This document shows positions 44,382-56,246 of a stretch of 64,000 bases of DNA, in pieces. The DNA is from Roseovarius sp. SCSIO 43702 (GTDB taxonomy: Bacteria > Pseudomonadota > Alphaproteobacteria > Rhodobacterales > Rhodobacteraceae). The translations under genes and the position numbers were made by a program. The notes below the pieces were generated by a model. It did no database searches, was not told the DNA's origin, and saw nothing but the letters and a program-made list of their open reading frames with translations. Position 1 is the stretch's first letter. The number at the start of each line of letters is the position of its first letter. The stretch lies in contig NZ_CP080623.1 in the NCBI RefSeq assembly GCF_019599045.1, positions 208,501 to 272,500 of the forward strand. Direction: 5' to 3'.

Positions 44382-45083
44382 TCAGGACCAGGTCACATCC
44401 GCCAGGAAGATGTAGCCCGCGCCGTAGATCGTCTTGATCAGCTTCGGGTTCTTCGGATCCTCGTCGAGCTTGGTGCGCAGCCGAGAAATGCGCACGTCCA
44501 TCGCCCTGTCGAAACTCTCGCCCGCACTGCCACCCAGCTCGTCCAGCATGGCGCTGCGCGTGATCAGCCTCTTGGGGCGTTCGAGAAAAAGTCTCAGAAC
44601 CTCGCCTTCCGCATGGGAGAAGGACGTTTCACGGCCGTCCTCGCGCTCGAGGACGAACCGATCGAAACGCGCGGTCCAGCCGTGGAACTCCGCCGTGCTC
44701 CGCTTCGGTTCGACCGGTGCGTCGCGCCGGAGGCGCGCCCGGATACGCGCGACGACCTCGGTCGGGTCGAAAGGTTTGATGATGTAGTCATCCGCCCCCA
44801 GCTCCAGGCCGGTGACACGGTCCCGTACTTGCGCCCGGCCGGAGATAATGATCACGATGGCCCCTTTCTCAAGCGCCAGGCGGTGCACGAGCGATAGCCC
44901 ATCGCGGTCGGGCAACGAAAGATCGACCAGGCAGACATCGGGCGTGACGTTGTTGAGCGAGGCTTCGAATTCCCTGGCGCGTCCGAACGAGATCGTGCGG
45001 AACCCCGCTTCGGCGAGGGTCTCGGCCAGCATCGTGCGAATTTCGGGCTCGTCATCCAGGATCGCAATAAGGGGCTCGGTCAT
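44382..45083 (-). CDS. OmpR-family response regulator
   Basis: 233 aa. Receiver domain with D10/D11, phosphorylation site D54 (LVDLSLPD) and the conserved Lys in IIKPFD; C-terminal winged-helix DNA-binding domain (SAMLDELGGSAGESFDRAMDVRISRLRTKLDEDPKNPKLIKTI in part). Start overlaps the kinase stop (ATGA), so it is the cognate partner. Probable targets include the divergent acyl-CoA synthetase/ABC operon; not proven by sequence. Confidence 0.93.
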   Translation of the reverse strand: MTEPLIAILDDEPEIRTMLAETLAEAGFRTISFGRAREFEASLNNVTPDVCLVDLSLPDRDGLSLVHRLALEKGAIVIIISGRAQVRDRVTGLELGADDYIIKPFDPTEVVARIRARLRRDAPVEPKRSTAEFHGWTARFDRFVLEREDGRETSFSHAEGEVLRLFLERPKRLITRSAMLDELGGSAGESFDRAMDVRISRLRTKLDEDPKNPKLIKTIYGAGYIFLADVTWS

Positions 45084-47002
45084 GATGCGACGCTCTCCTT
45101 CAGCAGGAATGATCTCAGGCGATCGGGCGCAACGGGTTTGCGAAGCACCGGGACGAGCTCGCGTGCCGCGACGTGGCGCGGATCCGATACGGGCAGCGAC
45201 GTCATCAGAACGACTGGAGGGTGATCGTGTGGCAGGCTCCGAAGAAGGTCAATGCCGGTTTCCTCGCCCTCGAGGACGATGTCGGACACAACTACAGAGA
45301 TTTCTGGCAGCTCCCTCATAAGGGTTCGGGCTTCGCTTGCGGTCGTCGCCTCGACCACGGTGTGACCATCCGCACAGAGAATATCGCGCAGGGTTCCGCG
45401 TATCTCGGCATTGTCTTCGAGAAGCAGCACCAGGCCCGGTGTCTCCGCATCGGGCGCGGGCCTGAGCGGAAGGCGCAAGGTCACGCAGGCGCCCTTCTGC
45501 CGGTTTTCAAGGGTGACGCGGCCCCCGGCAAGCTTGGTGACGTCATAGACCATGACGAGGCCAAGGCCGGTCCCGCCTTCTCCCTTGGTCGTGAAGAACG
45601 GATCGAACGCATGCCGCAATGCGTGATCCGAAAACCCCGGTCCGGTGTCCGAGACGGTGAAGTCGATCCAGGTGTCCTTGACCGCGGATACCGCGAGCTC
45701 GATCTCACCGGTTTCGCCGCAGGCATCCTTGGCATTGAGGACGAGGTTGAGAAGCGCATCCTGCAGCATCCCCGCTTCGAGCATGAGGCGCGCGTTGCCA
45801 ATGGTGCTGACGATCCCGAAGGTCACGCCATCGGGCAGGACCGAGCGCGCCAGCGGATCGAGGTCGGCCAGGAACTTCGCCAGGTTGACGGGGACCGGAT
45901 CATGTTTGCGCTCGCTCGTCATGTCCGCAATTCGGTTGAGAAGACTGCCGCCTCGTTTCGCGGCGGCGACTGTCGCCTGCACAAGCGCTGCGGCCTCATC
46001 CGGCAACCCGTCGATGCGCCCAAGCCGAGATTGCATCCCCAGAATGATCGTGAGCAGGTTCGAGAAGTCGTGGGCCAGACCCGACGTCATCTGCGCGGCC
46101 ACCTCGCGGCGGCGGGTCTGTTGAAGCGCGGCGCGGGTCTGGGCCTCTTCGGTGATGTCCATCGACAGGATATAGACGCCCCCCGTCTCTTCATCCGGGG
46201 TGAAGGCGGCCCGAATCCGGCGCGAGCTTGGCGCATGGGTGAATTCGAAGACCGAAGCATCCCCGTCGAACGCCGCGTCAAGCCGTGCCTCGATTGCGGA
46301 AAACGCCTCGGGACCAAGCGCGTCTTCGACCCGTTCTCCCACGATGGACGCCTTGCTTCCCGGCATGATCGAACTCAGCCGCCGGTTCGAATAGGTGTAG
46401 CGTCGGTCCGGTCCCACATGCGCGATGTGCGCGGGCATCATCTCGGTCGTGAGCCGTGTCCGCGCCTCGGATGCGGTCACCTGCCGCTTGGCCTCTTCGA
46501 GTGCCGTGATCGTCGCCTCGAGTTTTCTGTTCGTCGCGGCCAGGTCCTCGGAATAACCCGAAAGCTGGTCCGAAAGCTCATCCGAGCGGGCTTTCAGAAG
46601 TGCTTCCTGGCGCTTGGTCCGGGTGATGTCGGTATAGACCGTTACCCATCCTCCTTGCGGAAGCGGCGTGCCCTCGACCGCGATCGTGCGGCCATTCGCG
46701 CGTGTGCGTTCCATGTAATGCGGCTCGAACGCGCGCGCGATCTCGACCCTGTCACGGACGAACTCCTGAAGATCGTCCACGTCCCCGTAATCACCCCGGT
46801 GCGCAAGAAACGTGAGCGTATCCTCGAAAGAGGCACCGGGCGTCACGAGATGCGCGGGTAAATCGAACATCGCCTGGAACCGCGCGTTGCAGATCACGAG
46901 CCGAAGCGCGTCATCATAGATCGAGAGAGCCTGCTGGATGAGGTTCAGCCCCGCCATCGTGAGCGAGGTCGTATCCGGTTGCCGTGTCGCGTGATCGGTC
47001 AT
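45080..47002 (-). CDS. Hybrid PAS-domain sensor histidine kinase
   Basis: 640 aa, cytoplasmic (no membrane helix). Domain order: PAS (about residues 15-130: LIQQALSIYDDALRLVICNARF), coiled coil, second PAS (about 180-285), HisKA with H in GLAHDFSNLLTIILG, HATPase (NLVLNAKDA, DTGPGF, GEGGTGLGLVMVYD), then a C-terminal receiver with Asp in VVVSDIVLEGE. AAGGAA precedes the ATG at 47002. Lacking membrane segments, it probably senses an internal signal, such as a CoA thioester or redox state; this is inference. Confidence 0.93.
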   Translation of the reverse strand: MTDHATRQPDTTSLTMAGLNLIQQALSIYDDALRLVICNARFQAMFDLPAHLVTPGASFEDTLTFLAHRGDYGDVDDLQEFVRDRVEIARAFEPHYMERTRANGRTIAVEGTPLPQGGWVTVYTDITRTKRQEALLKARSDELSDQLSGYSEDLAATNRKLEATITALEEAKRQVTASEARTRLTTEMMPAHIAHVGPDRRYTYSNRRLSSIMPGSKASIVGERVEDALGPEAFSAIEARLDAAFDGDASVFEFTHAPSSRRIRAAFTPDEETGGVYILSMDITEEAQTRAALQQTRRREVAAQMTSGLAHDFSNLLTIILGMQSRLGRIDGLPDEAAALVQATVAAAKRGGSLLNRIADMTSERKHDPVPVNLAKFLADLDPLARSVLPDGVTFGIVSTIGNARLMLEAGMLQDALLNLVLNAKDACGETGEIELAVSAVKDTWIDFTVSDTGPGFSDHALRHAFDPFFTTKGEGGTGLGLVMVYDVTKLAGGRVTLENRQKGACVTLRLPLRPAPDAETPGLVLLLEDNAEIRGTLRDILCADGHTVVEATTASEARTLMRELPEISVVVSDIVLEGEETGIDLLRSLPHDHPPVVLMTSLPVSDPRHVAARELVPVLRKPVAPDRLRSFLLKESVAS

Positions 47003-47063
47003 GTCGGTTCCTTGGGATGTTCCGATACCACCTGGACGGGTGAGCAAGAAGCGTAAACCACCT

Positions 47064-47093: not shown

Positions 47094-47196
47094 TAGCGAA
47101 AAAGTTGACGATCAACAGGGTAGCGGCATCCATGTCGGCAGAAGCGACGAACGCGGGCAGGAGACCTCGCGCCAAGGGATGCAGGGAGGAAGCGAA

Positions 47197-49170
47197 TTGT
47201 CGAAGTCGGCCACGGCGGCAGAGGGATGCATGTCCTTTCCGGCCTTGCTTGAGCGCAATGTCAGGAAATTCGGAACGCGGCCTGCCTATCGCGAAAAAGA
47301 GTATGGAATCTGGCAATCCTGGACATGGTCGGAGGCGGCCGAGGAGATCGAGACGTTCTCCCTGGGTCTTCTGGCGCTCGGCGTCGAGGAAGGCGAGTTC
47401 GTCGCGATCGTCGGGCGCAACCGTCCCTATTTCTACTGGTCGATGGTTGCGGCGCAGTCGGTAGGCGCCATCCCCGTGCCGGTCTATCAAGACAGCGCGG
47501 CCGAGGAGATGGCCTATGTCATGGATCATTGCGGCGCGCGTTTCGCCGTGGTCGAGGACCAGGAGCAGGTCGACAAGATCATCGAGATTCAGGACAGCCT
47601 GACCGAGTTCGAGCACATGATCTATATCGATCCGAGAGGCCTGCGGAAATACGACCATACCAAGCTGCACCGGTTTGGCGAGGTCCAGGAGACCGGGCGC
47701 GAGAAGCGCTCCGAACTCATTTCGGAACTCGAAGCTCGCAAGGCAAAGCTGACATATGACAGCACCTGCGTCATGCTCTACACGAGCGGCACAACGGGCA
47801 AGCCCAAGGGCGTGGTTCTCAGCAACCGCAATATCATCGAAGCATCGAAATCGTCTTCGGAGTTCGACAACCTGCGACATACCGAAGAGGTTCTGGCCTA
47901 TCTGCCGATGGCGTGGGTAGGAGATTTCATCTTCTCCATCGGACAGGCCTACTGGTGCGGTTTCTGCGTCAATTGTCCCGAAAGCCCTGAAACCATGCAG
48001 ACCGACCTGCGTGAGATCGGGCCGACCTACTACTTCGCGCCGCCCCGCGTATTCGAAACGCAGTTGACCAACGTCATGATCCGCATGGAAGACGCGAGCC
48101 GCTTCAAGCAGGCTCTCTTTCATCATTTCATGGAGCATGCGCGCAAGGTCGGACCCGATATCCTGGACAAGAAACCCGTCAGCGCATGGGACAAGTTCTG
48201 GTATCGGGTGGGGCATCTGTTTGTCTACGGCCCGCTCAAGGATACGCTGGGATTTTCGCGCGTGCGGGTGGGTTATACCGCGGGCGAGGCGATCGGGCCG
48301 GAAATCTTCGAATTCTACCGCTCGCTCGGGATCAACCTGAAACAACTTTACGGGCAAACCGAGGCCAGCGTCTTCATCACGTTGCAACCCGACGGAGAGG
48401 TCCGCAGCGATACGGTGGGCGTGGCGGCGCCCGGCGTCGAGATCAGGATCGCCGACAGCGGCGAGGTCTTCTATCGCAGCCCCGGCACGTTCGAGGAATA
48501 CTACAAGAATCCCGAAAGCACCGCCTCGACCAAGGATCCGGAGGGATGGGTGGCGACGGGTGATGCCGGCTATTTCGACGAGGCGACGGGACATCTCAAG
48601 ATCATCGACCGCGCGAAGGACGTGGGGAAAATGGCCGATGGCCAGCTCTTTGCGCCCAAGTATGTAGAGAACAAGCTGAAATTCTTTCCCAACATTCTTG
48701 AAGCCGTGGTATTCGGCAACGGACGCGAGAAGTGCACGGCGTTCATCAATATCGACATGTCCGCCGTGGGGAACTGGGCCGAGCGGAACAATATCGGCTA
48801 TGCTTCCTACCAGGAACTTGCGGGCCATCCGCGCGTGCTCGAGACGATCAGGGAGCATGTGGAAGAGGTCAATCGCAGTCTCGCCGATGACCCGATGCTG
48901 GCACATTGCCAGGTGCATCGTTTCCTTGTGCTACACAAGGAACTCGATGCCGACGATGGCGAGATGACCCGCACCCGCAAGGTGCGGCGCAACATCATTT
49001 CCGAGAAGTTCGACGATCTTCTGACCGCGCTCTACGACGGCTCGGACGAGATTTTCACCACGACCGAGGTGACCTACGAGGATGGGCGCAAGGGCAGCAT
49101 CAGCGCGACGCTCAAGATCATGGATGCCGAAGTGGTGCCGGTCGAGACGCAGAAGGTGGCGGCGGAATGA
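47197..49170 (+). CDS. AMP-dependent acyl-CoA synthetase (long-chain fatty-acid-CoA ligase-like)
   Basis: 657 aa from a TTG at 47197 that follows GGGAGGA with 6-nt spacing; an ATG at 47179 or 47230 is possible. ANL-family signatures: P-loop YTSGTTGKPKG at about residues 194-204, LPMAWVGDFIFSIGQAYW, YGQTEASVFITLQPDG, GWVATGDAGYFDEATGHLKIIDRAKDVGKMADGQLFAPKYVENKL (in part). It should activate a carboxylic acid with ATP and CoA. Large size and the internal insertion resemble FAA1-type enzymes. First gene of a likely operon with LivGHMKF. Confidence 0.9.
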   Translation: MSKSATAAEGCMSFPALLERNVRKFGTRPAYREKEYGIWQSWTWSEAAEEIETFSLGLLALGVEEGEFVAIVGRNRPYFYWSMVAAQSVGAIPVPVYQDSAAEEMAYVMDHCGARFAVVEDQEQVDKIIEIQDSLTEFEHMIYIDPRGLRKYDHTKLHRFGEVQETGREKRSELISELEARKAKLTYDSTCVMLYTSGTTGKPKGVVLSNRNIIEASKSSSEFDNLRHTEEVLAYLPMAWVGDFIFSIGQAYWCGFCVNCPESPETMQTDLREIGPTYYFAPPRVFETQLTNVMIRMEDASRFKQALFHHFMEHARKVGPDILDKKPVSAWDKFWYRVGHLFVYGPLKDTLGFSRVRVGYTAGEAIGPEIFEFYRSLGINLKQLYGQTEASVFITLQPDGEVRSDTVGVAAPGVEIRIADSGEVFYRSPGTFEEYYKNPESTASTKDPEGWVATGDAGYFDEATGHLKIIDRAKDVGKMADGQLFAPKYVENKLKFFPNILEAVVFGNGREKCTAFINIDMSAVGNWAERNNIGYASYQELAGHPRVLETIREHVEEVNRSLADDPMLAHCQVHRFLVLHKELDADDGEMTRTRKVRRNIISEKFDDLLTALYDGSDEIFTTTEVTYEDGRKGSISATLKIMDAEVVPVETQKVAAE

Positions 49171-49175
49171 TGACT

Positions 49176-49361
49176 TCATTCTTCGATCCCACTGTGCGCG
49201 CGCAAAACCTTAATCCGAAGGGTCCCGTCATCGTATCTGGGATCAATTCCGTTGAACAAACAAACCTCTTCGAAAGTCTCTTGGCCGTCGCGACCTTCGC
49301 GGATGGCTGTTCGAGCAAGTCCTTCGATGAAAAGGCTGGGTTGCTGAAGGTCATGGGTCAT
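49176..49361 (-). CDS. Hypothetical 61-aa protein, antisense in the synthetase-livG gap
   Basis: The ATG at 49361 follows a near-perfect AGGAG with 7-nt spacing; the frame runs to a TGA at 49178-49176. The protein (start MTHDLQQPSLFIEGLAR) has an EGRDGQETFEEVCLFNGIDPRYDDG segment that reads like a real soluble helix-loop domain. Third-position GC is lower than in neighbours, so it may be a recent gene or a remnant. No family recognised. Convergent with the synthetase, 5 bp apart. Confidence 0.5.
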   Translation of the reverse strand: MTHDLQQPSLFIEGLARTAIREGRDGQETFEEVCLFNGIDPRYDDGTLRIKVLRAHSGIEE

Positions 49362-49485
49362 CGAATCGCTCCTAAGTGCAAAAGGAGCCTTCCAAGTAAA
49401 GCAGGATCCGGATTTCGCGCATGCACGATCCGCGACGCGATAGGGTTCGGCGCTGCGAAACGGAATATTTCCGAGGAAATTCAGC

Positions 49486-50304
49486 ATGCTTGACGCGACA
49501 GAGGGATACACCACGGAAGACGGCCGCAAGATCGGCGGCGTCGTGATGGAGATGAAGAACATCACGCTGCGCTTTGGCGGTGTGGTGGCGATCAAGGACA
49601 TCTCGTTCGACATTCGCGAGGGCGAGATCCGGGCCATCATCGGGCCGAACGGCGCGGGCAAGTCCAGCATGCTCAACGTCATCTCGGGCTTCTACCATCC
49701 GCAGGAGGGCGAGGTCTGGTACAAGGGTGAGCGCCGTCCGGCGATGAAGCCCTTCCAGGTTGCCCGGCAGGGGATCGCGCGGACCTTCCAGAACATCGCG
49801 CTCTTCGAGGGGATGAGCGTGCTCGACAACGTCATGACGGGTCGCATCCGGCAGATGAAGGCCGGGATGATCGCGCAGGCGATCTGGAAGGGGAAGGCCG
49901 AACGGGAAGAGGTGGAGAACCGCGAAGTCGTCGAGAAAGTCATTGATTTCCTCGAGATCCAGCATATCCGCAAGACACCCGTGGGGCGCCTTCCCTATGG
50001 TCTCAAGAAGCGGGTGGAGCTTGCGCGGGCGCTCGCGGCGGAGCCTTCGATCCTTCTTCTGGACGAACCGATGGCCGGCATGAACGTGGAGGAGAAGGAG
50101 GACATGAGCCGCTTCATCCTCGACGTGAATGACGAGTTCGGCACCACGATCGCGCTCATCGAGCATGACATGGGCGTGGTCATGGACCTGAGCGATCGGG
50201 TGGTCGTGATGGATTATGGCAAGAAGATCGGGGACGGAACACCCGACGAGGTGCGCACCAACCAGGACGTGATCGACGCCTATCTGGGGGTGGCCCATGA
50301 CTGA
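49486..50304 (+). CDS. ABC transporter ATP-binding protein, LivG type
   Basis: 272 aa. Walker A GPNGAGKSS (about residues 54-62), variant signature LPYGLKKRVELARALA, Walker B ILLLDEPMAGMNVEEKE, and the LivG-type C-terminal IGDGTPDEVRTNQDVIDAYLG. It pairs with the LivF-type subunit downstream. GAGGAA precedes the ATG at 49486. An inverted repeat CGGAA-TAT-TTCCG (49461-49473) sits just upstream and could be an operator. Confidence 0.92.
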   Translation: MLDATEGYTTEDGRKIGGVVMEMKNITLRFGGVVAIKDISFDIREGEIRAIIGPNGAGKSSMLNVISGFYHPQEGEVWYKGERRPAMKPFQVARQGIARTFQNIALFEGMSVLDNVMTGRIRQMKAGMIAQAIWKGKAEREEVENREVVEKVIDFLEIQHIRKTPVGRLPYGLKKRVELARALAAEPSILLLDEPMAGMNVEEKEDMSRFILDVNDEFGTTIALIEHDMGVVMDLSDRVVVMDYGKKIGDGTPDEVRTNQDVIDAYLGVAHD

Positions 50305-50311
50305 ATTTTCA

Positions 50312-50355
50312 ACGTCGGTATCCATGTCGGTATCCACGTCGGTATCGCGTCGGTG
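50312..50355 (+). repeat. Tandem 12-bp direct repeats between livG and livH
   Basis: Three consecutive units of the form AyGTCGGTATCs (ACGTCGGTATCC, ATGTCGGTATCC, ACGTCGGTATCG) at 50312-50347, then a partial fourth CGTCGGTG. Located in the 86-bp gap between two genes of the same operon, just before the livH ribosome site. Confidence 0.8.
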
Positions 50356-50390
50356 CGTTTGCCGCATCCGCAACGAGGGAGGCCCTATCC

Positions 50391-51404
50391 ATGCCTGAAC
50401 AACTGATCTGGGGGATGGAGGTCTTCGTGAACGGCCTCATGGCCGGGGTGCTCTACGCGCTCGTCGCGCTGGGGTTCGTTCTGATCTTCAAGGCATCGGG
50501 CATCTTCAACTACGCGCAAGGCGTGATGGCGCTTTTCGCTGCGCTGACGCTCGTGGGGATCATGGAAGGACAGGTGCCGTTCAGCCACCTGATCAACGCC
50601 GTCTTCGGAACAGAGATACATCACTTCGGATGGCATGTTCCCGCGTTCCTCGCGATCATCTTCACGATGCTGGTGATGATCGCACTGGCCTGGGCGGTGA
50701 ACAGGTTCATCTTCCGCCATCTCGTCAACCAGGAGCCGATCATCCTGTTCATGGCGACCATCGGACTCGCCTATTTCCTCGAGGGGGTGGGTGACGTGAT
50801 GTGGGGGTCGGACATCAAGAAGCTCGATGTGGGCCTGCCCCAGGGGATCAACCTGACCATCGACGAATTCACCTTCAACCTGTTCGAATACGGCTTCTTT
50901 ATCGACAACCTCGATCTCTGGGCGGCGCTCGTCGCGGCGCTCTTGGTGATCGCGCTGGTGATCTTCGCGCAGTATTCGAAGCAGGGCCGCGCGATGCGCG
51001 CCGTGGCCGATGACCACCAGGCCGCGTTGTCGGTGGGCATCTCGCTCAACTTCATCTGGGTGATGGTCTGGTCGCTGGCAGGCTTCGTGGCGCTGGTCGC
51101 GGGGATCATGTGGGGCACGAAGTCGGGCGTGCAGTTCTCGCTCTCGCTCATCGCGCTCAAGGCATTGCCGGTGCTGATGCTGGGCGGCTTCACCTCGATC
51201 CCCGGCGCCATCGTGGGCGGGCTCATCATCGGGGTGGGCGAGAAGCTTTTCGAGTTCATCATGTCGAGCGACGCCCTGGCCGGACAATGGTTCGGCTTCA
51301 CGATCAGCGCGACGGAAAACTGGTTCGCCTACGTGCTGGCGCTCCTGTTCCTGGTCTTCCGGCCGCAAGGATTGTTCGGGGAGAAGATCATTGAGCGGGT
51401 TTAG
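50391..51404 (+). CDS. ABC transporter permease, LivH type
   Basis: 337 aa inner-membrane permease with about 8 helices. Starts MPEQLIWGMEVFVNGLMAGVL; has the LivH loop RAMRAVADDHQAALSVGISLNFIW and the GGFTSIPGAIVGGLIIGVGEK segment. A longer-than-usual loop between helices 4 and 5 (DIKKLDVGLPQGINLTIDEFTFNLFEY) distinguishes this subgroup from classical amino-acid transporters. A strong GAGG ribosome site is present. Confidence 0.92.
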   Translation: MPEQLIWGMEVFVNGLMAGVLYALVALGFVLIFKASGIFNYAQGVMALFAALTLVGIMEGQVPFSHLINAVFGTEIHHFGWHVPAFLAIIFTMLVMIALAWAVNRFIFRHLVNQEPIILFMATIGLAYFLEGVGDVMWGSDIKKLDVGLPQGINLTIDEFTFNLFEYGFFIDNLDLWAALVAALLVIALVIFAQYSKQGRAMRAVADDHQAALSVGISLNFIWVMVWSLAGFVALVAGIMWGTKSGVQFSLSLIALKALPVLMLGGFTSIPGAIVGGLIIGVGEKLFEFIMSSDALAGQWFGFTISATENWFAYVLALLFLVFRPQGLFGEKIIERV

Positions 51405-51475
51405 AGACTGGTTCGGGTCCACGGGGCCGCGGCCCGGACGGCCGGGCGATCACGTGAAAGAGTGGGGAGACGTCG

Positions 51476-52741
51476 ATGATTTATCGTGAAGCAGGCGATT
51501 TCAAGACGTCCTATGTGGACGACAGCCAGACCTTTCCGATCAGGTTCGACCGGTATGGATATTACGCCGCCCTCGTCGTCGCCTTCGCCATCGTGCCGTT
51601 CGTCATCAACGACTACTGGGTCAACGCGGTTGTCCTGCCCTTCCTGATCTATGCCATCGCGGCGATCGGGCTCAATATCCTCACGGGCTATTGCGGGCAG
51701 GTCTCGCTTGGCACGGGCGGGTTCATGGCGGTGGGGGCCTATGCCTGCTACAAGCTGATGACGGCCTTTCCCGACGTGAGCATCATCATCCACGTGATCC
51801 TCTCGGGTGCGATCACCGCGGCGGTGGGCGTGCTGTTCGGCCTGCCGAGCCTTCGGATCAAGGGCTTCTACCTGGCGGTCGCGACGCTTGCGGCGCAGTT
51901 CTTCCTCGTCTGGCTCTTCAACCGGGTGCCGTGGTTCTACAACTACTCGGCCTCGGGCCAGATCAGCGCGCCGGAACGCGAGGTGTTCGGCGTGGCGATC
52001 ACGGGGGCCGAGACGGCGCCCTGGGCCGCCTATCTCTTCTGCCTCGTCTTCACGGTTCTCTCGGCCCTCATCGCGCGCAACCTCACGCGCGGGATGGTGG
52101 GACGGAAATGGATGGCGATCCGCGACATGGACATCGCGGCCGAGATCATTGGGGTCAACCCGCTCAGGGCGAAGCTCAGCGCCTTCGCGATCAGCTCGTT
52201 CTTCGTGGGCGTCTCTGGCGCGCTGTTCTTCGCGGTCTATCTCGGCGCGGTCGAGGTGGGCGAGGCGTTCGGCATCAACAAGTCGTTCCTCGTCCTCTTC
52301 ATGGTGATCATCGGGGGGTTGGGGTCGATTTTCGGGAGTTTCGCGGGGGCCGCGTTCCTCGTCATCCTGCCGGTCTTCCTCAAGATCGCGCTCGCCGATC
52401 ATGCGGCGGTGAGCCCCGTGTCGAACGCGCTCGCGACGCTGTGCCTCGCGATCTTCGGGGTGGCATTGCTGCTTTTCCTCGCGCACCTGGTCCTGCGCGT
52501 CTTCGGGCGCCGGCTCTGGAAGGATCTCGGCGCGCTTTGCGGCATCGTGGCCCTGATCGCGTTCTTCGCCTACGCGCTGCTCTCGGGTGGGCTGGGCTGG
52601 CCCACCGATATCGTCGCGCATGTGCAGCTGATCATCGTGGGCGCGCTCATCATCGTGTTTCTCGTGGCCGAGCCGCACGGGCTGGCACAGCTCTGGCGCG
52701 TGGCGAAGGAGAAACTGAGACTTTGGCCTTTCCCCCACTAG
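51476..52741 (+). CDS. ABC transporter permease, LivM type, extended
   Basis: 421 aa; classical LivM is about 330-425 aa. About 10 helices plus two extra C-terminal ones (about residues 340-405). LivM marks: GLNILTGYCGQVSLGTGGFMAVGAY, RDMDIAAEIIGVNPLRAKLSAFAISSF and IGGLGSIFGSFAGAAFLV. GGGGAG precedes the ATG at 51476. The short gap after livH may contain a 32-codon overlapping reading frame (see findings). Confidence 0.92.
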   Translation: MIYREAGDFKTSYVDDSQTFPIRFDRYGYYAALVVAFAIVPFVINDYWVNAVVLPFLIYAIAAIGLNILTGYCGQVSLGTGGFMAVGAYACYKLMTAFPDVSIIIHVILSGAITAAVGVLFGLPSLRIKGFYLAVATLAAQFFLVWLFNRVPWFYNYSASGQISAPEREVFGVAITGAETAPWAAYLFCLVFTVLSALIARNLTRGMVGRKWMAIRDMDIAAEIIGVNPLRAKLSAFAISSFFVGVSGALFFAVYLGAVEVGEAFGINKSFLVLFMVIIGGLGSIFGSFAGAAFLVILPVFLKIALADHAAVSPVSNALATLCLAIFGVALLLFLAHLVLRVFGRRLWKDLGALCGIVALIAFFAYALLSGGLGWPTDIVAHVQLIIVGALIIVFLVAEPHGLAQLWRVAKEKLRLWPFPH

Positions 52742-52796
52742 GGCAAGGCGATTCATCGAACGAAAGATCGGATAGAACCAAGGGAGGTATGAACCG

Positions 52797-54077
52797 ATGA
52801 AACGACACCTTATCGCGGCGCTCGCGGGCGTGACCATGATGGCGGGACCGGCGCTTGCCGAACTGACCATCGTGGACCTGTCCTATCGCACCGGGCCCTA
52901 TGGCGCGAACGGCATCCCGTTCTCGGACGGCTACCAGGACTATTTCACGCTACTCAACGAGCGTGATGGCGGTATCGGGGGCGAGAAGATCAACCTGATC
53001 GAATGCGAGACCGCCTACAACACCGAGAAGGGGGTCGAATGCTATGAGGCCACCAAGGGTGAGGGCGCGCTGGTCTATCAACCGCTCTCGACGGGTATCA
53101 CCTATCAGCTCATCCCCAAGGTGACGGCGGACGAGATTCCGCTTCACACGATGGGTTACGGGCGCACTTCGGCCAAGAACGGCGAAGTGTTCAAGTGGGT
53201 CTTCAATTATCCCGCGAACTACTGGGACGGGGCGAGCCTCGCCGTCAAGCACATGATGGAGCAGGCGGGCGGCAGCCTCGAAGGCAAGACCATCGCGCTT
53301 GTCTACCACAACAGCGCCTACGGGAAGGAGCCGATCCGCACGCTCGAGAAGCTGAGCGAGAAGCATGGCTTCAACCTGACGCTTCTGCCGGTGGATCACC
53401 CGGGTCAGGAACAGAAGAGCCAGTGGCTCCAGATCCGGCGCGAGAAGCCCGATTTCGTTCTCATGTATGGCTGGGGCGTGATGAACCAGGTGGCGATCCA
53501 AGAAGCGGTGAACATCCGCTTTCCAATGGAAAACTTCATGGGAATCTGGTGGTCGGGCTCCGAGAACGACGTGAAGGCGGCGGGTGATCGGGCCGATGGC
53601 TACAAGGCGCTGACGTTCCACAATCTCGGCTCCGACTATCCGGTCTATGACGACATCCAGAAATATGTCGTGGACACGGGCAAGGCCGCCGGCGCGGGTG
53701 ATGGCATCGGCTCGGTTCTCTATAACCGGGGAATGTATGCCGCGATGCTCGCCGCCGAGGCGATCAAGACCGCGCAGGAGATCCACGGCGTGAGCGATAT
53801 CACCTCGCAGCAGATGCGCGACGGGATGGAAAACCTCGAGATGACCGAGGAGAAGATGGCCGAGATCGGCCTTCCGAACTTCGGCCCCGAGTTCAAGGTG
53901 AGCTGCGAGAACCACGGCGGCAACGGCTTTGGCGCGGTGTCGCAATGGGATGCCGAAGCCGGTGAGTTCAAGCTCATCACCGACTACTTCCAGTCCGACC
54001 AGGAGGTCATCCAGCCGCTGATCGAAGAGGACAGCATGGCCTTTGCCAAGGAAAACAACATCGAGCCGGGCTGCTGA
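52797..54077 (+). CDS. ABC transporter substrate-binding protein, LivK-like
   Basis: 426 aa with a signal peptide (cleavage after GPALA, residue 21). Type I periplasmic-binding fold typical of branched-chain amino-acid or aromatic-acid receptors (DLSYRTGPYGANGIPFSDGYQDYFTLLNERDGGIGGEKI in part; NYPANYWDGASLAVKHM). AGGGAGGT lies 8 nt upstream of the ATG. Expected to be the most abundant product of the operon; a very strong hairpin follows the gene. Confidence 0.92.
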   Translation: MKRHLIAALAGVTMMAGPALAELTIVDLSYRTGPYGANGIPFSDGYQDYFTLLNERDGGIGGEKINLIECETAYNTEKGVECYEATKGEGALVYQPLSTGITYQLIPKVTADEIPLHTMGYGRTSAKNGEVFKWVFNYPANYWDGASLAVKHMMEQAGGSLEGKTIALVYHNSAYGKEPIRTLEKLSEKHGFNLTLLPVDHPGQEQKSQWLQIRREKPDFVLMYGWGVMNQVAIQEAVNIRFPMENFMGIWWSGSENDVKAAGDRADGYKALTFHNLGSDYPVYDDIQKYVVDTGKAAGAGDGIGSVLYNRGMYAAMLAAEAIKTAQEIHGVSDITSQQMRDGMENLEMTEEKMAEIGLPNFGPEFKVSCENHGGNGFGAVSQWDAEAGEFKLITDYFQSDQEVIQPLIEEDSMAFAKENNIEPGC

Positions 54078-54084
54078 CCCATTG

Positions 54085-54114
54085 CCCCGGCCGCGGCGCG
54101 GGCCGTGGCCGGGG
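54085..54114 (+). promoter_or_regulatory. Strong stem-loop after the substrate-binding gene
   Basis: A 13-bp stem (54085-54097 with 54102-54114, one G-U pair) closed by a 4-nt loop. No U-run follows, so it probably stops 3'-exonucleases and stabilises the upstream mRNA rather than terminating completely; the rest of the operon continues behind it. Confidence 0.75.
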
Positions 54115-54180
54115 TGTCTTGAGTACTTTTGCCAAGAAGAAGCCGCGCGCACCCAAGGGTGAGCGGCCATGGAGAGAACC

Positions 54181-55005
54181 ATGCTGGACGCCGGGAAGAC
54201 CGAGGAGGCCCTGCTCGAGGTCAACAACATCGAGGTGATCTACAATCACGTGATCCTCGTGCTGAAGGGCGTGAGCCTGAGCGTGCCCAAGGGCGGAATC
54301 ACCGCGCTGCTGGGCGGCAATGGCGCGGGCAAGACGACGACGCTCAAGGCGATCTCGAACCTGCTCAAATCCGAGCGGGGCGAGGTGACGAAGGGCAATA
54401 TCCGCTATCGCGGAGAGCGGGTGCAGGATCTCGCGCCGTCCGAACTCGTGAAGCGCGGCGTCATTCAGGTGATGGAGGGGCGCCATTGCTTCGAGCACCT
54501 GACGGTCGAGGAAAACCTGCTTACCGGCGCCTACACGCGCCGCGCGAGCCGGGGCGACATCGATGCCGACCTCGACCTCGTCTACAGTTATTTCCCGAGG
54601 CTGAAGGAGCGCCGCAGGAGCCAGGCGGGCTATACCTCGGGCGGCGAACAGCAGATGGTCGCGATCGGACGCGCGCTGATGAGCCGGCCCGAGACGATCC
54701 TTCTGGACGAGCCCAGCATGGGCCTCGCACCGCAACTGGTCGAAGAGATCTTCAACATCGTCAAGAGCCTCAACGAGAACGAGGGGGCAACCTTCCTCCT
54801 GGCCGAGCAGAACACGAACGTCGCGCTGCGCTTCGCGCAATACGGCTACATCCTCGAAAGCGGGCGGGTGGTCATGGACGGCCCCGCGAAGGAGCTGCGC
54901 GAGAATCCGGATGTGAAGGAGTTCTATCTCGGCATGTCCGACGAGGGCCGGAAGAGCTTTCGCGACGTGCGCTCCTACCGGCGGCGCAAGAGGTGGCTGT
55001 CGTGA
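54181..55005 (+). CDS. ABC transporter ATP-binding protein, LivF type
   Basis: 274 aa from the ATG at 54181 (an in-frame ATG at 54169 is also possible). Walker A GGNGAGKTT, signature SGGEQQMVAIGRAL, Walker B TILLDEPSMGLAPQLVEEIF. Second ATPase of the importer. Its TGA overlaps a GTG codon in the next gene's frame. Confidence 0.92.
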   Translation: MLDAGKTEEALLEVNNIEVIYNHVILVLKGVSLSVPKGGITALLGGNGAGKTTTLKAISNLLKSERGEVTKGNIRYRGERVQDLAPSELVKRGVIQVMEGRHCFEHLTVEENLLTGAYTRRASRGDIDADLDLVYSYFPRLKERRRSQAGYTSGGEQQMVAIGRALMSRPETILLDEPSMGLAPQLVEEIFNIVKSLNENEGATFLLAEQNTNVALRFAQYGYILESGRVVMDGPAKELRENPDVKEFYLGMSDEGRKSFRDVRSYRRRKRWLS

Positions 55006-55025
55006 CGCGGAACGGGAACCCAGGG

Positions 55026-56246
55026 ATGAACCAATTCTTCGACGAACTCGAAACGCGGAGCGCGGATGCGCGCGCGACCGACATCGCCAAGGCGCTGCCC
55101 GACCAGATCGCTCGCGCCAAGGCCCTTCCGGGATATGCCGGGCGACTTGACGACGTTGACCCGGACGCGATCATGAGCGTGGAAGCGCTGGCCGATCTTC
55201 CGGTGCTGCGGAAATCCGACCTGGGCGCCGCGCAAAAGAACGCCACCCCCTTCGGTGGCTTGACCGCGCGTGCCGCGAACGGATTCGCGCATGTCTTCCA
55301 AAGCCCCGGTCCGATCTATGAGCCGGGTGGCGACGCGCATGACTGGTGGCGCATGGGCCGGTTCCTGCATGCCTGTGGTATCGGGCGCGGCGATATCGTG
55401 CAGAACTGCTTCGGCTACCATCTGACCCCGGCCGGCATGATCTTCGAGAACGGCGCGAGGGCCGTGGGGGCCACGGTGCTGCCCGCCGGCACGGGACAGA
55501 CGGAGCTGCAGGCGCGCGCCGCGCATGACGTGGGCACGACCGCCTACGCGGGCACGCCCGATTACCTCAAGGTCATCCTCGACAAGGCCGATGAGCTGGG
55601 TTTCGACCTCTCGATCACCAAGGCCGCCGTGGGCGGCGGCGCACTTTTCCCGTCGCTGCGGCAGGAATACGCGGACCGGGGCATCCTTTGCCTGCAATCC
55701 TATGCCACGGCCGACCTGGGCAGCATCGCCTATGAAAGCGCCGCGCAGGAAGGGCTCGTCATCGACGAAGGAGTGATCGTCGAGATCGTCACCCCCGGCA
55801 CCGGCAACCCGGTCAGGCCGGGAGAGGTCGGCGAGATCGTGGTGACGACGCTCAACCCCGACTATCCGCTCGTCCGATTCGCCACGGGCGATCTCAGCGC
55901 CATGATGGACGGGCAAAGCCCATGCGGGCGGACCAACAGCCGCATCAAGGGATGGATGGGTCGGGCCGATCAGACCACCAAGATCAAGGGAATGTTCGTG
56001 CGTCCCGAGCAGGTCGCCGCCCTTGTGGCGCGGCACGAGGAGATCGCGCGCGCTCGCGTGATCGCACGGCGCGAGGGCGAGATGGACATCATGTGCGTCC
56101 AGATCGAAAGCGACTGCACCGATGCGGATCGCTATGCCGGGTCGGTCGCCGATGCGCTCAAGATGAAGGGCCGGATCGAGATCGTGGCCCCGGGCAGCCT
56201 TCCCAACGACGGCAAGGTAATCGAGGATCAGCGCAGCTATGACTGA
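55026..56246 (+). CDS. Phenylacetate-CoA-ligase-like protein with altered phosphate loop
   Basis: 406 aa from the ATG at 55026 (a GTG at 55002 overlapping livF would add 8 residues). Overall alignment with PaaK is clear: GATVLPAGTGQTE, the TADLGSI and FATGDLSAM regions, GRADQTTKIKGMFVRPEQ, and a C-terminal LPNDGKVIEDQR with the catalytic-type Lys. But where PaaK has its SSGTTGKPT nucleotide loop, this protein reads QSPGPIYEPG (residues 92-101). It either uses ATP differently or is not a ligase. Last gene of the operon. Confidence 0.85.
   Translation: MNQFFDELETRSADARATDIAKALPDQIARAKALPGYAGRLDDVDPDAIMSVEALADLPVLRKSDLGAAQKNATPFGGLTARAANGFAHVFQSPGPIYEPGGDAHDWWRMGRFLHACGIGRGDIVQNCFGYHLTPAGMIFENGARAVGATVLPAGTGQTELQARAAHDVGTTAYAGTPDYLKVILDKADELGFDLSITKAAVGGGALFPSLRQEYADRGILCLQSYATADLGSIAYESAAQEGLVIDEGVIVEIVTPGTGNPVRPGEVGEIVVTTLNPDYPLVRFATGDLSAMMDGQSPCGRTNSRIKGWMGRADQTTKIKGMFVRPEQVAALVARHEEIARARVIARREGEMDIMCVQIESDCTDADRYAGSVADALKMKGRIEIVAPGSLPNDGKVIEDQRSYD

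Follow-up and report, generated by a model that had tools for sequence, protein, structure and literature searches.

A PaaK-like protein with a conserved SPG sequence in place of the phosphate loop, a possible non-adenylating partner of a FadD–Liv import operon

The last gene of an import operon in the window (the whole 64,000-nucleotide stretch of Roseovarius sp. SCSIO 43702 DNA analysed here) encodes a PaaK-like protein, hereafter the subject, in which a different and nearly fixed sequence takes the place of the ATP phosphate loop. With a probability of roughly 0.5, we read its product as a PaaK-fold protein without ATP-dependent adenylation that would serve as a dedicated partner of the FadD-type CoA ligase and LivGHM-SBP-LivF importer encoded with it. 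This non-adenylating partner ranks as most likely, followed by an enzyme that would catalyse the second half-reaction or acyl transfer and then by an ordinary ligase with an unusual loop. The loss of ATP chemistry on which the first reading turns is what we infer from sequence comparison.

The subject gene starts with ATG, 20 bases downstream of the LivF gene, and its frame is uninterrupted in the window ORF check (Table 1), leaving no sign of the local frameshift that the earlier note had considered; the host genome is a single contig of 3.6 Mb. Membership of the ANL superfamily, proposed in that note, is borne out by the Pfam AMP-binding profile PF00501 (32 bits against a cut-off of 29.9), whose match covers residues 137–274 only, and an ANL/PaaK-fold relative by sequence is the supported assignment. 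The two NCBIfam PaaK equivalog models are matched below their cut-offs (TIGR02155, 110.5 against 646.3 bits; NF041878, 155.9 against 700 bits), and for seven SPG-clade proteins compared with NCBIfam the sole matches were PaaK-type or other ligase models, all under cut-off. Identity as an ordinary PaaK was rejected because these cut-offs are not reached, the phosphate loop differs and a profile search of the subject's own genome returned no match to the PaaA/PaaC epoxidase (PF05138). Annotated copies are named ‘AMP-binding protein’, ‘phenylacetate--CoA ligase family protein’ or ‘putative phenylacetate-CoA ligase’; current annotation names suggest an activity that the sequence probably cannot have.

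Table 1. Features of the import operon, its flanking regulators and the motifs of the PaaK-like protein (window coordinates)
Feature	Coordinates	Strand	Basis
OmpR-type response regulator beside kinase	44382..45083	-	homologues in 25/84 loci; flanks often end earlier
PAS hybrid histidine kinase, divergent from operon	45080..47047	-	homologues in 49/84 loci
FadD-like acyl-CoA synthetase (663 aa), first gene, loop TSGTTGKPKG intact	47179..49170	+	profile matches
LivG-type ABC ATPase	49486..50304	+	Pfam, NCBIfam
LivH-type permease	50391..51404	+	Pfam, NCBIfam
LivM-type permease	51476..52741	+	Pfam, NCBIfam
Periplasmic solute-binding protein (Peripla_BP_6)	52797..54077	+	Pfam
LivF-type ABC ATPase	54169..55005	+	Pfam, NCBIfam
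SPG-loop PaaK-like protein, subject (406 aa)	55026..56246	+	ORF, profile matches, tree
Codons for residues 92–101 QSPGPIYEPG, at the place of the A3 phosphate loop (SSGTTGKPT)	55299..55328	+	profile alignment, codon analysis
A5-equivalent SYATADLG (residues 225–232)	55698..55721	+	alignment
A7 VRFATGDLS (residues 283–291)	55872..55898	+	alignment; ribose-binding Asp289 invariant
A8 RIKGWMGRADQTTKIKGMFV (residues 306–325)	55941..56000	+	alignment, conservation windows
A10-equivalent LPNDGKVI (residues 392–399)	56199..56222	+	profile alignment; K397 present in subject

The A3 motif of the ANL superfamily, [ST]SG[ST]TGxP, is absent from the subject, which has SPGPIYEP instead. Profile–profile alignment of 18 SPG proteins with 13 ordinary PaaKs (E 8e-57) places S93-P94-G95-P96-I97-Y98-E99-P100 on S-S-G-T-T-G-K-P, confirming the replacement described in the earlier note, and five PDB relatives (three PaaKs, HCL and 9s3l) carry GTTG-type loops aligned at about the same place. 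A 2026 survey (PMC13186573) treats the SSG-type loop as a core motif of phenylacetate ligases. According to a review of aryl-CoA ligases (PMC8388817), PaaK1 holds the ATP phosphates through loop amides together with Ser94, Thr96 and Thr97; the equivalents in the subject are Pro94, Pro96 and Ile97, two of the three now being proline, and the loop further differs by Gly98 to Tyr and Lys99 to Glu.

Close homologues share the change, as the earlier note had left to be seen. The sequence x-S-P-G occurs in 155/155 rows above 300 bits (a few loci being duplicated), and after removal of duplicate loci S93, P94 and G95 are each found in all 147 unique orthologues and P96 in 145. Among these genes, six different codons are used for S93, four for P94 and four for G95; the loop, nearly fixed as S-P-G-P-I-x-E/D, is fixed at the protein level and free at the codon level. 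The median dN/dS was 0.11 (253 pairs, 23 genus genes), at a median dS of 1.16 for the 253 genus pairs, which is therefore near saturation. Replacement of the usual ATP-gripping loop by another fixed sequence suggests that the subject has probably lost the normal mode of ATP use; it may be a helper in import and activation. No characterised SPG-loop relative, and thus none described as an ordinary ligase, was found in the PDB, NCBIfam or the literature searched.

Outside the loop, the subject retains much that is typical of PaaK (PDB 4r1l, 2y27 and 2y4o), to whose sequence family it belongs (4r1l at E 4e-37 with the single sequence and E 3e-65 with a profile). The A7 Asp, R306 and the GR of A8 are common to both, and residues shared by the SPG clades and ordinary PaaKs include Y226, R284, T287, D289, R306, G312 and R313. 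In A5, Y226 is kept and the acid is Asp in 149/154 clade-1 rows, against Glu in 26/27 ordinary PaaK rows. The earlier note's statement that A7 and A8 remain holds for A7, where R284, T287 and D289 are intact and the ribose-binding D289 is present in 154/154 clade-1 rows; A8 is partly altered (D316 to Q, I319 to K, N324 to F), K319 and F324 being typical of SPG clades, and in clade 2 its D315 and G322 are lost. Conservation in SPG proteins peaks in the AMP-ribose and A8 stretches, residues 311–325 ranking first and 279–293 second among 15-residue conservation windows. A set of residues that ordinary PaaKs seldom have is invariant or nearly so in both SPG clades: Q70, P94, P96, H132 (Gly in PaaK), P135, A229, G232, Y236, G288, K319 and F324. 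The subject also differs from PaaK in its surroundings, its neighbours being FadD and a Liv importer.

The A10 lysine of ANL enzymes serves the adenylation step. The C-terminal lysine motif, which the earlier note likewise took to remain, does so in the subject itself and is not conserved in the clade: position 397 is Lys in 107/154 clade-1 rows (otherwise Leu in 33, Ile in 7, Val in 3, and Arg or missing in the rest) and E, D or T in all 11 clade-2 rows, with Lys in none, and 25 rows, one of them truncated, have no lysine anywhere across positions 391–401. With the loop replaced as well, the adenylation machinery is therefore changed or unconstrained in two separate places.

The family tree was built on the 80 rows that remained of 195 after thinning at 75% identity (56 labelled SPG, one of them APG, L044; 19 SSG; five unlabelled). 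In it, one branch parts SPG rows from ordinary PaaK rows with support of 100/99, the bootstrap being not settled. Four of the unlabelled rows carry TSGTTG and fall on the ordinary side; the fifth, within the SPG side, is a decayed relative (L046 9282–10274, + strand, genome G093) that has lost the loop and lacks the C-terminal part. Matches in G131, G254, G295, G312, G382 and G335 were reported with one internal stop. We define SPG clades by an S-P-G-P loop together with H132, A229, G232, K319 and F324, all present in the subject. Clade 1 includes the window gene, and its sister clade 2 (30–36% identical, loop SPGPIFEP or SPGPVFEP) was found in eight of the 60 genus genomes examined. A clade-1 match above 550 bits was obtained in 42/299 phylum-wide genomes, the next match lying at 250 bits, and the SPG gene occurs in both Alpha- and Betaproteobacteria; outside Pseudomonadota sampling was via plasmid records only, and no absence is claimed for other phyla.

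The seven genes run on the + strand from 47179 to 56246 in the order FadD, LivG, LivH, LivM, SBP, LivF and PaaK-like, so that a complete importer directly precedes the subject gene and an acyl-CoA synthetase with a canonical loop stands at the far end, both as previously described. Since kinase homologues recur across loci (Table 1), the divergent two-component pair (44382–47047) is, from its position, a possible regulator of the operon. A Crp-type regulator gene (L031 1603–2358, - strand, the one representative scanned) has homologues near the operon in 16 of 40 diverse loci.

FadD is present in 80/84 PaaK-like loci whose upstream flank spans 8 kb or more; of the other four, L135 and L125 lie in genomes carrying a 73% and a 74% FadD, respectively, and the remaining two are L036 and the Methylibium PM1 locus described below. 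By hand count over 60 genus genomes (two of them, G025 and G045, entered from split or partial matches), both genes occur in 44, FadD only in two (76% and 72% complete), the PaaK-like gene only in none and neither in 14. Phylum-wide, FadD lies within the fetched stretch in 22/26 loci and elsewhere in the other four genomes, on the same contig at 28 kb (G392), 26 kb (G110) and 13 kb (G262) or on another contig (G291). Clade-2 and deeper relatives lie in or near FadD-Liv clusters wherever the stretch was visible, and the deep relatives L044, L220 and L221 adjoin 32–33% identical FadD and Liv genes. Exceptions run both ways. In G083 (86% complete, locus L036) the gene accompanies LivF and SBP, and no FadD was found in the genome at E 1e-40; in Methylibium PM1 it accompanies Liv genes, and tblastn found no FadD in the 21-kb stretch; in the L089 genome the best FadD match is only 33%, the contig stopping before the FadD place. 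Conversely, some FadD-Liv modules, the operon type that houses the subject gene, have no PaaK-like gene within the stretch retrieved (L218 of G026 and L223 of G091), and therefore not all of them need the PaaK-like protein.

The importer itself varies. In some operons LivH, LivM and SBP are only ~30–40% identical to those of the window or undetected, with the PaaK-like gene at 44–58%. This divergence, together with a PaaK-like tree of modest support that mixes FadD types, suggests that the protein is not tied to a single substrate and apparently works with several importers. One-to-one coevolution with FadD was sought and not found: FadD types, set as identity below or above 47% to the window's FadD, change once on the FadD tree and six times on the PaaK-like tree, only two of the six being required by well-supported branches (quick trees of 42 rows, with L044, L220 and L221 left out).

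On the partner reading, the importer would bring in a carboxylic acid, FadD would activate it, and the PaaK-like protein would bind the product side of the FadD reaction, whether the AMP moiety of acyl-CoA, the acyl-adenylate or AMP; such binding might serve docking, regulation or the passing on of the acyl group at the membrane. The replaced loop, the A10 Lys not kept across the clade, the retained AMP-ribose site and A8, and the FadD-Liv linkage all argue for it, as does the decayed copy, whose genome returned no FadD match at E 1e-60. Against it, co-inheritance as an operon would explain the co-occurrence without physical partnership, and the kept A5 acid and A7/A8 residues would be compatible with a working enzyme. 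FadD appears complete alone, which leaves the need for a helper unexplained, and the exceptions to the linkage given above, including the L089 genome, also count against the partner.

Those retained residues lead to the next alternative, a later-step enzyme that would take the acyl-adenylate or acyl-CoA made by FadD and catalyse only the thioester-forming or acyl-transfer half, with His132 and Lys319 participating. We hold it as a tentative possibility: A5, A7 and A8, which form the AMP and CoA side of ANL enzymes, rank high in conservation, and both SPG clades invariably have H132 and K319, where most ordinary PaaKs carry other residues. The A8 losses of clade 2, however, mean that the geometry of the thioester step may not be kept, and a free acyl-adenylate would have to be protected on its way from one enzyme to the other.

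That the subject is an ordinary ATP-dependent acyl-CoA ligase, accommodating another loop and holding the phosphates by other residues, appears unlikely. Asp289, the A5 acid and, in the subject's species, Lys397 are present, the gene is under purifying selection, and beta-oxidation or mutase genes stand beside some copies, all of which would suit such an enzyme. Yet the two prolines take amides away from a loop whose function depends on them, no equivalents of Ser94, Thr96 and Thr97 are left, and a table in the aryl-CoA ligase review (PMC8388817) gives 4- to 2000-fold losses of activity for changed loop residues and no activity for a change of Pro168. The A10 lysine is unconserved, and the FadD of the same operon carries the canonical loop. 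Decay or sequencing error is very improbable and was rejected despite the one decayed relative, given a loop conserved across the 147 unique genes, the low dN/dS within the genus and occurrence in two proteobacterial classes.

Extending the partner reading, one may speculate, with some doubt, on a two-protein membrane acyl-CoA synthetase, in which FadD would adenylate the imported acid and the loop-less PaaK-fold protein would receive the activated acyl group (or the AMP/CoA product), driving import by trapping. If true, an ANL protein would have become specialised to the second half-reaction or to partner control and been reused with several importers. An ANL relative that is widespread and conserved but lacks the ATP-phosphate site offers a natural test of how far adenylation and thioester formation are separable, and SPG proteins also test how ABC import couples to CoA activation.

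Among other known systems, the divergent PaaK-family ligases AjiA1 and PDB 6siw, the latter presumably NatL2, are matched with the profile at E 1e-16 and 6e-14. AjiA1 and NatL2 belong to benzoxazole biosynthesis, as listed in PMC8388817. Closer is the PaaK-like 2-hydroxyisobutyryl-CoA synthetase HCL (PDB 6hdw; E 4e-48 with the profile), which differs from the subject in retaining a TSGTTGRP loop; it adjoins mutase genes in the account of PMC7176365, some SPG genes likewise lie near B12-dependent acyl-CoA mutase genes, and a listing in PMC4517660 gives the HCL of Methylibium PM1 as Mpe_B0539. A transposon table (PMC5876002) lists a phenylacetate-CoA ligase and a LivH, and PMC4103551 lists a putative paaK; either would be at most a candidate for the SPG gene.

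Neighbours in Roseovarius THAF8, Azospirillum, Xanthobacter Py2 and perhaps Methylibium PM1 suggested a link to 2-hydroxyisobutyrate/isovalerate catabolism. As a general function this was set aside, because SBPs differ between operons sharing the PaaK-like gene and the few annotated recurring neighbours (kinase, regulators, N-formylglutamate amidohydrolase) do not point to it; it is kept as a hint for some species only. In Roseovarius THAF8 (L059 1–1903), B12-dependent acyl-CoA mutase and MeaB-type genes lie just upstream of the FadD gene, and in Xanthobacter Py2 (L063 6367–9489) mutase and MeaB-type genes lie upstream of the PaaK-like gene with a PaaD-type gene between. On Methylibium PM1 plasmid RPME01 (L061), the PaaK-like gene is ~7 kb from Rieske oxygenase and reductase genes that look like those of tert-butyl alcohol hydroxylase. 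A different setting is seen at L260 (8527–12115, + strand) and, by eye, at L259, where the PaaK-like gene stands between a class I/II aminotransferase and a ferrochelatase; in the L260 genome FadD is 26 kb away.
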